This document shows positions 10,761 to 14,580 of a stretch of DNA of 36,139 bases, one piece after another. Each line of letters starts with the position of its first letter. Positions within the stretch are counted from its first letter, which is position 1. A program made the translations under genes and the position numbers. The DNA is from Megasphaera sp. (lineage in GTDB: Bacteria; Bacillota; Negativicutes; Veillonellales; Megasphaeraceae). The stretch covers positions 1 through 36,139 of the forward strand of contig JALCNL010000013.1 of NCBI GenBank assembly GCA_022649055.1. Direction: 5' to 3'. The notes beneath the pieces are model-generated. The model was not told the DNA's origin. It saw only the letters and a list, made by a program, of their open reading frames with translations, and ran no database searches.

Positions 10761-10788
10761 TTGACTTTTCAGCAAAAAAGGCTATACT
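10761..10788 (+). promoter_or_regulatory. thi operon promoter
   Basis: TTGACT (10761-10766) and TATACT (10783-10788) are spaced by 16 bases, placing the start near 10795. Only about 14 transcribed bases precede the leader hairpin, so there is no space for a TPP riboswitch aptamer between promoter and terminator. Confidence 0.7.
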
Positions 10789-10808
10789 TTTTTTAGAGTG
10801 CTAACTAT

Positions 10809-10870
10809 AAAAGCCGCACGAAGGGGTACACCACCTAGGGTGTAATTCTTCGTGCGGCTTTTATTTTTTT
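10809..10870 (+). terminator. terminator-like leader hairpin (attenuator) before thiS
   Basis: Arms 10809-10823 and 10848-10862 pair perfectly over 15 bp, GC-rich in the middle. They are followed by a run of T (ATTTTTTT), so this is a strong intrinsic terminator. Inside, a GGG/ATT internal loop leads to a second 6-bp stem (TACACC 10827-10832 with GGTGTA 10839-10844) capped by ACCTAG. The thiS ribosome site (GGAGG) follows within 10 bases of the T run. The hairpin lies between promoter and thiS, so it probably controls read-through. The structured apical part may be the sensor or a protein site. No classic TPP-riboswitch sequence is present. Confidence 0.75.
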
Positions 10871-10888
10871 AGAAAGGAGGTCCATATT

Positions 10889-11083
10889 ATGCTTACCATC
10901 AATGGGAAAAAAGTTGCTGCTGACGGTATCACGTTAAACAACTATCTAACACAAGAGGGCTATCGAAAGGAACGAGTCGCAGTTGAACTTAACGGTTCCA
11001 TCATACCGCGCAGTGCCTATGCTCAAACGCGCCTCATCGATAACGACAAAATAGAAATCGTGCAATTTGTTGGCGGCGGCTGA
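10889..11083 (+). CDS. thiS: sulfur carrier protein ThiS
   Basis: A 64-residue ubiquitin-like protein ('MLTINGKKVAADGITLNNYL') ending in GGG. The C-terminal glycine is adenylylated by ThiF and then carries the thiocarboxylate sulfur used by ThiG. The ribosome site GGAGG is at 10877-10880. It is the first gene of thiS-thiG-thiH-thiF. Confidence 0.95.
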   Translation: MLTINGKKVAADGITLNNYLTQEGYRKERVAVELNGSIIPRSAYAQTRLIDNDKIEIVQFVGGG

Positions 11084-11134
11084 CCCATCATCTAAAAGAC
11101 AGTTGTACCTTATAAAAAACAAGGAGTGGTTATA

Positions 11135-11905
11135 ATGGAAACAAACGATACATTCGTATTAGGCGGTCATGAATTTTCATCTCGTTTTATTTTAGGTTCA
11201 GGTAAGTATAATGTAGATTTAATTAAAGCGGCTGTCGAACAAGCTGGTGCAGAAATCATTACGATGGCCTTGCGGCGTGTCGAAGCCGGTCAAAAAGATA
11301 ACATTCTCGATTACATTCCTAAAAAAATAACACTGCTGCCAAATACGTCTAGTGCCCGTACTGCCGAAGAATCAATTCGCATTGCCCATCTTTCCCGAGA
11401 ACTTGGTTGCGGAGATTTTATCAAAATCGAGGTTATGCGTGACACAAAATACCTGCTCCCCGACAATGCCGAAACCATCAAGGCAACAGAGCAGCTTGCC
11501 AAAGAAGGATTCATCGTATTGCCTTACATGTACCCGGATTTATATGCGGCTCGTTCTCTCCGTGATGCCGGTGCTGCCGCAATTATGCCCCTTGCTTCGC
11601 CGATTGGCACAAATAAGGGACTTTCTACTCGTGATTTCATTCAAATTCTCATTGATGAAATAGATTTGCCAATCATTATCGATGCAGGTATCGGCCGTCC
11701 TTCCCAAGCCTGCGAAGCCATGGAAATGGGCGCTTCGGCAATTATGGCCAACACCGCGCTTGCCACAGCTGGTAATATACCGCTTATGGCAAAAGCATTC
11801 CGCCAGGCTATCGAAGCAGGCCGAGCAGCTTATCTATCTGGACTTGGCAGGGTTCGTGAAACGGCATCTGCATCAGATCCGCTTACAGGCTTTTTAGGAG
11901 ATTAA
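11135..11905 (+). CDS. thiG: thiazole synthase ThiG
   Basis: A 256-residue TIM-barrel enzyme that condenses 1-deoxy-xylulose 5-phosphate, dehydroglycine and ThiS-thiocarboxylate into the thiazole phosphate. Recognised by '[12 protein letters not shown]' near the N-terminus, the Schiff-base lysine in '[10 protein letters not shown]', '[20 protein letters not shown]', '[15 protein letters not shown]' and '[20 protein letters not shown]'. Start ATG 11135 has AAGGAG 8 bases upstream; GTG at 11126 would overlap that site. It lies between thiS and thiH, whose product supplies dehydroglycine. Confidence 0.97.
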
Positions 11906-11916
11906 GGGGTGTTATA

Positions 11917-13077
11917 ATGGAAGAAAAACGTATCGATCACATGAAATATTTACCGGATATGGAAATTATCGACTCTACTATGCTGGAAGATGTACTGCAA
12001 TATCACGATGCATTTCGCAATGAAGACTTTACCTCGAAAAATGTAAAAAAAGCTCTTGCCAAAACCCATTTGGAACCTCAGGATTTTATGGCCCTTCTTT
12101 CTACGGCAGCTTTGCCTTTTCTGGAGGAAATAGCTCAAAAGGCACACACCGTAACGCGTCGTCATTTTGGTAACTCCATTAACTTATTTACACCTATCTA
12201 TTTTGCGAATTATTGTGAAAATTACTGTATTTACTGCGGTTTCAATTCTCATAACAAAATTCAGCGTGCTAAGTTATCTGATGTTGAACTTCGTCAAGAA
12301 TGCACAAATATTGCTAAAACCGGATTGGAAGAAGTGCTTATGTTAACCGGTGAAAGCCGTCATATGTCCGATGTAGCGTATATCGGTAATGCCATTAAAA
12401 TTGCCAGGGAATATTTCCGTATTGTAGGTGTGGAAATTTATCCGGTAAATGTAGATGAATACAAATATTTACACGAATGCGGCGCAGACTATGTCACAGT
12501 ATTTCAAGAAACGTATAATTCTGACAAATACGAAACACTTCATCTCGCCGGTCACAAACGTATTTTTCCTTATCGTTTTTATTCTCAGGAAAGAGCTATT
12601 TTAGGCGGCATGAGAGGGGTTGGTTTCGCAGCACTCTTAGGACTTGATGATTATCAAAAAGATGCCGTTGCTACCGGTATGCATGCCTGGCTTATACAAA
12701 AAAAATATCCTCATGCAGAAATCTCGTTGTCATGTCCGCGCCTTCGCCCTATTATTAATAATGATAAAATAAATCCAAAAGACGTACATGAAAAGCAGTT
12801 GGTCCAGATAATTTGTGCCTATCGTTTATTTATGCCATACGCCAGCATCGTTGTTTCCAGCAGAGAAAGTCCTTATTTCCGCAACAATATTATCAAAATC
12901 GCTGCTACAAAAATATCTGCCGGAGTATGTACTGGTATAGGCGGCCATATAATAGAAGATGAACAAAAAGGCGATGAACAGTTTGAAATCAGCGACACCC
13001 GCTCTTTCGACGAAATTTATGCTGCTGTTAAATCAGAACATCTCCAGCCTGTGACCAGTGAATACATTTATTTATAA
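11917..13077 (+). CDS. thiH: 2-iminoacetate (dehydroglycine) synthase ThiH, radical SAM
   Basis: A 386-residue radical SAM tyrosine lyase. The cluster motif C-x3-C-x2-C appears in 'YCENYCIYCGFNSHN', and the C-terminal 'VVSSRESPYFRNNII' segment is typical of ThiH. It cleaves tyrosine to dehydroglycine and p-cresol and supplies dehydroglycine to ThiG. Aerobes use the oxidase ThiO instead, so ThiH fits an anaerobic lifestyle. The start at 11917 follows AAGGGG and lies 11 bases after the thiG stop. Confidence 0.96.
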   Translation: MEEKRIDHMKYLPDMEIIDSTMLEDVLQYHDAFRNEDFTSKNVKKALAKTHLEPQDFMALLSTAALPFLEEIAQKAHTVTRRHFGNSINLFTPIYFANYCENYCIYCGFNSHNKIQRAKLSDVELRQECTNIAKTGLEEVLMLTGESRHMSDVAYIGNAIKIAREYFRIVGVEIYPVNVDEYKYLHECGADYVTVFQETYNSDKYETLHLAGHKRIFPYRFYSQERAILGGMRGVGFAALLGLDDYQKDAVATGMHAWLIQKKYPHAEISLSCPRLRPIINNDKINPKDVHEKQLVQIICAYRLFMPYASIVVSSRESPYFRNNIIKIAATKISAGVCTGIGGHIIEDEQKGDEQFEISDTRSFDEIYAAVKSEHLQPVTSEYIYL

Positions 13078-13089
13078 GCAGGGTATGTC

Positions 13090-13908
13090 ATGACAAAAAA
13101 AATAAATATAAACGGACAGACACAAACAACAGAATTTCTGTTTCTCCAAGACTTGCACCATCATTGCTTTCCTTCGGCAGATCTATCAATTTTAAACGGA
13201 TATGCCACTACTGAAAACTTACCGTTGCAAACAGGTGATGACATTTATTTTATCGAAAAAAACAAATTGCCATCCCGTGCATCATTAGAAGCAATGATGT
13301 GTTCCCGTCATACTCCTCATGTTCACGAGAAAGTAAAGCAAGGAAAAGTTGCCATTGCCGGACTTGGCGGTCTCGGTTCTCATGCTGCTATTTTTTTAGC
13401 ACGCACCGGGGTAGGCTCACTGCATCTTGTAGACTTTGATACTGTCGATGTCAGCAATTTAAATCGACAAGCTTATCGGATCAACGATTTAGGTAAACAA
13501 AAAACGGCTGCCCTAGCTGCGCAGATTGCAGAAATAAACCCATTTATTCATGTACATACAAACTGTGTCAAAGTGACCAGCGAAAATGCCGCTTCTCTTT
13601 TTGCAGATGATTGCATCATCTGTGAAGCCTTTGATAATCCTGCTGCCAAAGCGATGCTTATTAATACAATAGTAACACAGTGTCCCAAAAAATATATTGT
13701 ATCTGCCTCTGGTATGGCAGGTTACGGAAACAGTAACGATATTCAAACACGAAAAATCACAGACCACTTTTATCTTTGTGGTGACGGCACCCAAGGTGCC
13801 ATACCCGGGCGGGGTCTTATGGCCCCCCGGGTCGCTATTTGTTCCGCCCACGAAGCTAACCTGATTGTAAAACTTCTGGTAGATATTTTACCAGATGCCG
13901 CACGTTAG
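13090..13908 (+). CDS. thiF: ThiS adenylyltransferase ThiF with N-terminal ThiS-like domain
   Basis: A 272-residue E1-like protein. Residues 1 to about 60 resemble a ThiS/ubiquitin fold ('MTKKININGQTQTTEFLF', 'ENLPLQTGDDIYFIEKN') but lack the terminal GG. Residues from about 80 form the ThiF nucleotide-binding domain ('VAIAGLGGLGSHAAIFLART', 'LVDFDTVDVSNLNRQAY'). This fused layout is the ThiF variant seen in clostridia and relatives. The zinc CxxC pairs of E. coli ThiF are not evident, as usual in this variant. It starts 12 bases after thiH and probably ends the core thi operon. Confidence 0.9.
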   Translation: MTKKININGQTQTTEFLFLQDLHHHCFPSADLSILNGYATTENLPLQTGDDIYFIEKNKLPSRASLEAMMCSRHTPHVHEKVKQGKVAIAGLGGLGSHAAIFLARTGVGSLHLVDFDTVDVSNLNRQAYRINDLGKQKTAALAAQIAEINPFIHVHTNCVKVTSENAASLFADDCIICEAFDNPAAKAMLINTIVTQCPKKYIVSASGMAGYGNSNDIQTRKITDHFYLCGDGTQGAIPGRGLMAPRVAICSAHEANLIVKLLVDILPDAAR

Positions 13909-13916
13909 TCTATACA

Positions 13917-13945
13917 TTGACTCACCTATGATATTAAGGTATAGT
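13917..13945 (+). promoter_or_regulatory. internal promoter upstream of tenI
   Basis: TTGACT (13917-13922), 17 bases, TATAGT (13940-13945). It lies in the 78-base gap after thiF, so tenI can be transcribed independently of the attenuated thi leader. Near-symmetric ACCT (13924-13927) and AGGT (13937-13940) lie between the two boxes. Confidence 0.55.
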
Positions 13946-13986: not shown

Positions 13987-14580
13987 GTGCAAAATATACT
14001 TGCTATAACAAACCGCACATTAGCTCCCAACAACTATTGGGAACAATTAGAAAAAATAGCCGCATCGGATGTAAACACCTTGATTCTGAGAGAAAAAACA
14101 CTAAGTGAAGAGGATTACATGACATATGCCCGGCAAGCATTGCAAATCTGCAATGCTCACGGAAAGACGTGCATTCTCCATCACTTTGGGAAAACAGCTA
14201 TTCAGCTTCATGTTCCACGATTTCAATGTTCCTTGTCCTATCTACGGATTCATTCTTCTATTTGTTATTTTATGACTACCTTAGGCGTTTCTGTGCATAC
14301 GGCAAAAGAAGCAAGAGAAGCAGAAGAACTGGGGGCTACCTACATCATGGCCAGCCACATATTTGAGACAAATTGCAAGCCTGATTCCCCTGCCATCGGA
14401 GTCAGCGAACTAAAAAATATTTGTAATGCTGTTTCCATTCCGGTATATGCCTTAGGCGGGATTACTGAAAAAAATATTGCTGCACTGAACGCTCTTCCTA
14501 TTTCAGGTATAGCGCTTATGTCCAGCTTAATGACTTGCTCCGATATACCGGCATATTTAAAACAGCTGGACAATAACTAA
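13987..14580 (+). CDS. tenI: TenI-like thiazole tautomerase (ThiE/TenI family)
   Basis: A 197-residue TIM-barrel protein, starting with GTG at 13987. It has the family's 'LILREKTLSEEDY', 'LGVSVHTAKEAREAEELGA' (the GxSxH motif) and 'ALGGITEKN' segments. The stretch 'ASHIFETNCKPDSPAIG' resembles TenI (HVFETDCK) rather than the phosphate-binding GPIFPTxTK of ThiE. TenI converts the ThiG product to the aromatic carboxythiazole phosphate. The position behind thiSGHF fits that role. A residual ThiE activity cannot be excluded by eye. Confidence 0.75.
   Translation: MQNILAITNRTLAPNNYWEQLEKIAASDVNTLILREKTLSEEDYMTYARQALQICNAHGKTCILHHFGKTAIQLHVPRFQCSLSYLRIHSSICYFMTTLGVSVHTAKEAREAEELGATYIMASHIFETNCKPDSPAIGVSELKNICNAVSIPVYALGGITEKNIAALNALPISGIALMSSLMTCSDIPAYLKQLDNN

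Follow-up and report, generated by a model that had tools for sequence, protein, structure and literature searches.

A terminator-embedded thiS leader in a Megasphaera relative as a very probable member of the HMP-PP riboswitch class

How is a thiazole operon regulated when its leader consists of a terminator hairpin and lacks a TPP riboswitch? The window, i.e., the whole stretch of 36,139 nucleotides of Megasphaera sp. DNA that was analysed (contig JALCNL010000013.1), raises this question with a thi operon on its forward strand. The first regulated gene, thiS, encodes the sulfur carrier (10889-11083; TIGR01683) and is followed by the thiazole synthase gene thiG (11135-11905, with an alternative GTG start at 11126), the 2-iminoacetate synthase gene thiH (11917-13077; TIGR02351), a thiF gene of family 2 (13090-13908; TIGR02354) and a thiE/tenI-type gene (13987-14580) for a thiamine phosphate synthase or a thiazole tautomerase, whose matches lie under the curated cut-offs. 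Because the NCBIfam search gave no model match for thiG, this gene was named from its operon position and its sequence, which has near-full-length matches in 30 relatives. The operon-borne ThiF has about 55 extra N-terminal residues (13090-13260) resembling ThiS (INGQTQTTEF...NGYATTENLPLQTGDDIYF), despite the presence of thiS in the operon. Between thiF and the thiE/tenI-type gene lies a promoter-like site (TTGACT-17-TATAGT, 13917-13945), which suggests that the latter gene may have a second, riboswitch-free promoter.

The first-pass annotation had described a promoter followed by a terminator hairpin and thiS, and this order was borne out. The thi operon has a sigma-70-type promoter (TTGACT-16-TATACT, 10761-10788; 10 of 12 consensus matches), a call that is weak alone and is accompanied by a promoter-like site kept at the same place in relatives. 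Transcription would start at about 10795-10797, and the RNA folds into a single hairpin (10807-10864) that is separated from thiS by a ribosome-binding site and has a minimum free energy of -41.3 kcal/mol (z = -7.5 versus dinucleotide shuffles, none of 200 being equally good). Its stem, initially read as a perfect 15-bp helix, actually comprises 19 bp, i.e., 17 Watson-Crick and 2 G-U pairs between a 5' arm at 10807-10825 (folding and model-based alignment) and a 3' arm at 10846-10864 (folding), and the supposed GGG/ATT internal loop is a GGGG (10823-10826) facing AUUC (10845-10848) where one G-C and two G-U pairs are followed by a G/A mismatch (10826/10845) between stem and tip; in most relatives these positions are G-U or G-C. 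The tip P2 (UACACC-ACCUAG-GGUGUA, 10827-10844; folding and alignment) consists of 6 bp (10827-10832/10839-10844) and the loop ACCUAG (10833-10838), and the U-rich tract UUUUAUUUUUUU (10859-10870) forms the intrinsic terminator tail and the presumed pause site of RNA polymerase. At the other end, the 5' leader AGAGUGC (10795-10801), a transcript start conserved in the leaders of relatives, contains GUGC (10798-10801), the 5' strand of a competing ON-state stem. Its 3' strand, GCAC (10816-10819), is also part of the terminator 5' arm, so that the two pairings are mutually exclusive. This ON-state stem, which apparently corresponds to P1 of Atilho et al. (2019) and P0 of Stav et al. (2019), is short (4 bp with a 14-nt loop) and weaker than the versions of many relatives.

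The claim that the leader is devoid of a TPP riboswitch was confirmed by Rfam. The scan of the leader at gathering scores returned no family, the TPP riboswitch included, and at E <= 10 gave sub-threshold, chance-like matches only; the TPP aptamer core was not found in the thiS leader, and RF00059 occurs in the genome only on the contigs C56 and C59. The TPP riboswitch is comparable as a regulator of thiamin genes in this genome, but it possesses a large separate aptamer, which is missing from the thiS leader. On C56 it precedes thiC, a gene that is present in the genome together with thiD, and the second one (C59, 12029-12133, minus strand) scores 54.1 bits versus a gathering score of 54.3 and lies upstream of a transporter gene, whose product is apparently of the NCS1 type and CytX-like (HMP uptake) as judged from its sequence. 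When Rfam release 15 was run against 16 loci, clear members of the class discussed below gave no match for the motif, and Rfam 15 apparently does not contain this class. The missing Rfam match of the leader is therefore no argument against membership.

Stav et al. (2019; PMC6429828) described a conserved RNA upstream of thiS, the thiS motif, in line with the comparative surveys mentioned in the first-pass annotation. This motif has been characterized as the HMP-PP riboswitch, an ON switch whose aptamer resides almost wholly within an intrinsic terminator (Atilho et al. 2019; PMC6478431). According to the text of the latter report, HMP-PP binding, ON switching and the effects of mutants were demonstrated for Clostridium members, and the landmarks are G24-27 (mutation M1 being G26C), C35 (M2), an unpaired loop at 35-39 and wobble partners at 46-49. 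If position 24 is set to 10823, the GGGG of the window copy occupies 24-27, C35 falls on C10834, eleven positions past the first G just as in the published spacing from 24 to 35, the loop 35-39 covers 10834-10838, and AUUC at 10845-10848 takes the place of 46-49. On the basis of these text landmarks, the architecture and the gene context, the segment 10795-10870 is with high confidence assigned to the HMP-PP riboswitches (thiS motif RNAs) and would turn the thiSGHF(E) thiazole operon ON.

The closest likeness is to the thiS leader of Clostridium sp. Maddingley as described in the text of these reports (PMC6478431, PMC6429828), which shares the terminator-embedded aptamer without a separate aptamer domain, the position upstream of thiS, the GGGG at 24-27, C35, the loop 35-39, the partners at 46-49, the competing 5' stem and a switch at about 52-54. 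The window copy differs in its host, a Megasphaera relative, in its short 4-bp ON stem with a 14-nt loop and in the AUUC at 46-49; as far as the published description goes, neither copy stands in tandem with a TPP riboswitch. The Guanidine-IV riboswitch and the HRC-8-4 motif, compared by paper description only, differ from the window copy in ligand and genes. By analogy with the Clostridium members, we infer that the copy in the window would bind HMP-PP and regulate the operon in its host, the predicted ON signal being HMP-PP and not TPP or thiazole.

The proposal that relatives should be inspected for covariation and for conservation of the apex led to a clear picture. The same element is present in the leaders of ThiG-bearing relatives, the stem covaries, and the apex is almost invariant and conserved across families, so the alternative that the apical part lacks conservation fails; four loci (L029-L032) read from one related family do not have the element. 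A covariance model built from 18 leaders gave the window copy 75.4 bits (E 1.7e-17), and found no other convincing copy in its own genome. At the level of the class, 65 of 300 genomes had a match, and at the level of the phylum 13 of 398. Named genomes scanned with a sequence pattern yielded at least 120 stretches, mostly from Clostridia (Lachnospiraceae, Clostridium, Eubacterium, Roseburia, Flavonifractor); among the pattern matches listed, Megasphaera, Colibacter, Veillonella and Pelosinus are also represented, and the exact sequences of Clostridium sp. Maddingley and C. lundense are not. Pattern matches from Shewanella (L103), Gammaproteobacteria (L106), Actinomycetota (L131), Gemmatimonadetes (L158) and Acidobacteriia (L172) were rejected as apparent chance matches in coding sequence without a U-run.

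Among the matches listed, the arrangement GGGG-N4-CCACC-loop-GG was found in 142 non-redundant relatives (<80% identical), nearly all of them before thiamin genes. GGGG and CCACC were fixed in the search pattern, so that their invariance in this set is by construction, but the ThiG-anchored leaders, which were collected without pattern selection, show the same letters. Stem covariation was assessed after aligning 63 matches to the model, since MAFFT mis-registered members with 8-nt loops: 95.3% of the pair cells hold standard pairs, 12 pairs have changed on both sides, and two-sided changes were counted in 174 cells versus 46 +/- 6 in shuffles that leave some phylogenetic relatedness in place (0 of 500 reach the observed value). 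For the competing 5' stem, the 142 sequences among the matches listed gave a duplex energy of -4.68 kcal/mol with their own partner versus -3.44 +/- 0.13 kcal/mol with swapped partners (0 of 2000 permutations), and helices of at least 5 bp occurred in 43% versus 22%. This covariation of the 5' stem across 142 relatives among the matches listed represents independent support for the published mechanism.

These data also bear on a competing explanation, a plain intrinsic terminator that serves an upstream transcript or acts in both directions without any sensing, which would account for the strength of the hairpin, its U-run and the score of 35 bits that the reverse complement reaches with the covariance model. 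The gene upstream of the hairpin is divergent, however, so that there is no upstream transcript for it to end; the hairpin starts about 20 nt or less from its own promoter, upstream of thiS, and both the conservation of the apex across families and the covarying 5' stem speak against a mere terminator. We consider this explanation very improbable.

The HMP-PP riboswitch reading also predicts where along the transcript the decision would be made. When the RNA from 10795 was folded with successively later 3' ends (nested 3' truncations), the ON-stem (10798-10801:10816-10819) had a probability of 0.95 at position 52, 0.67 at 53, 0.14 at 54 and 0.01 at 55, and the lower stem of the terminator was formed from position 55 onward. 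According to the published text, in-line probing of a Clostridium RNA detected the aptamer-state stem with 52 nt exposed, both forms with 53 and the terminator with 54 (PMC6478431), and the computed ON-to-OFF switch at 52-55 agrees with this experiment on another member of the class. With RNA polymerase at the U-run (10859-10870), about 12 nt would still be inside the enzyme and the exposed RNA would end near 10851, with the leader GUGC paired with the GCAC of the terminator 5' arm and the P2 tip free. HMP-PP, supplied by ThiC and ThiD, would bind the nascent RNA while the polymerase sits in the U-run. If abundant, it would occupy a pocket formed by GGGG and the loop CC (a proposed pseudoknot) and hold the leader-stem arrangement, so that transcription enters thiS; if scarce, the exposure of 2-3 further bases would allow the 19-bp terminator to close and transcription would stop. 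In this scheme, the OFF state has the GGGG paired to the 3' side, and its proposed ON-state partner is the loop; both sides of the pseudoknot (GGGG and CC) are conserved, with too little variation for covariation to bear on it. In this model, anatomy, conservation, covariation, gene context and switch point come from the present analysis, and ligand, ON logic and mutants are carried over from other members of the class.

The first-pass annotation had left three options for sensing, i.e., the hairpin itself as a ligand sensor, a structure that reads the ThiS or thiazole status, and a bound protein. The first one agrees with the landmarks of the thiS motif; the other two did not hold up. The LicT/BglG leader (RF03530) is likewise a short leader with a terminator, and cmscan reported a match to bglG-cis-reg, but its 22 bits are far below the gathering score of 80. 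Moreover, according to the text of Atilho et al., a small molecule elicits the response of class members, both when transcription is run with purified components and in in-line probing (PMC6478431). A protein-bound antiterminator or attenuator, or a structure reading ThiS or thiazole status, is accordingly extremely unlikely. A different concern is that the leader might be a relative of the thiS motif with a changed ligand, e.g., HMP-P, thiamin monophosphate or thiazole, since other riboswitch classes are known to have undergone ligand drift. The leader retains every landmark position that the published text names and has the standard gene context, which makes a changed ligand a very unlikely reading of this copy.

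The HMP-PP riboswitch assignment is further supported by the genes that follow the motif elsewhere. Among the matches listed, ThiS is the first recognised gene within 300 nt in 134 of 175 distinct matches and ThiF, ThiG or ThiE in 11 more, so that one automatic test places 145 of 175 before such genes; most of the remaining matches have a divergent or more distant ThiS, ThiW (PF09512) or a thiamine-binding protein (PF01910), or lie at contig ends. In Clostridium aestuarii (L134:4141-4370, minus strand), the motif is located about 130 nt behind a TPP riboswitch and before a thiamine-binding-protein gene, and this tandem layout of TPP and HMP-PP riboswitches is already described in the published text (PMC6478431). 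Several further copies have other neighbors. Divergent copies (38-48 bits, GACGGGG..CACC) precede stand-alone ThiF genes with a ThiS-like N-terminus at five loci (L200, L202, L204, L073, L074). One copy is found before ThiW (L208), and ecfA-like ATPase genes of ECF transporters are preceded by the motif at a distance of 150-500 nt in one family of the class (L205 / L221:4158, minus strand; L215:228). ThiW is an ECF S component, and the ECF energy module may therefore be co-induced.

A second strong copy (62-67 bits) is located directly before a permease gene in three genomes of the Megasphaera family, i.e., G005 (L199), where the permease frame is split, G010 (L201:262-1800) and Megasphaera sp. 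NM10 (G011; L203). At >=89% identity the permease occurs in three genomes of the family, and all three carry the motif; among NCBIfam models, it matches PheP and AroP best, with scores below the equivalog cut-offs. No report of an association between motif and permease was found in the literature searched. ThiH consumes tyrosine, and tyrosine supply is hence a plausible reason for the permease copies. Tentatively, at somewhat less than even chances, the Megasphaera-type HMP-PP regulon might extend past the thiamin genes, with HMP-PP calling for tyrosine import via a PheP/AroP-like permease that feeds ThiH and thiazole synthesis. The permease copies represent a testable extension of the HMP-PP riboswitch regulon.

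The thiS leader of this Megasphaera relative is a well-preserved example of a riboswitch class described before; the locus is thereby well explained and largely ordinary in kind. The assignment to a validated class resolves the apparent oddity of a thi leader that lacks a TPP riboswitch, and it illustrates that Rfam-based genome annotation overlooks the HMP-PP riboswitch class. With respect to the physiology of the host, our analysis suggests a split control within one genome, in which the pyrimidine branch (thiC and an apparently HMP-type transporter) is under TPP riboswitches and the thiazole branch is switched ON by HMP-PP. Given HMP-PP-dependent read-through, thiazole synthesis in the cell would be confined to times when the pyrimidine partner is already available.
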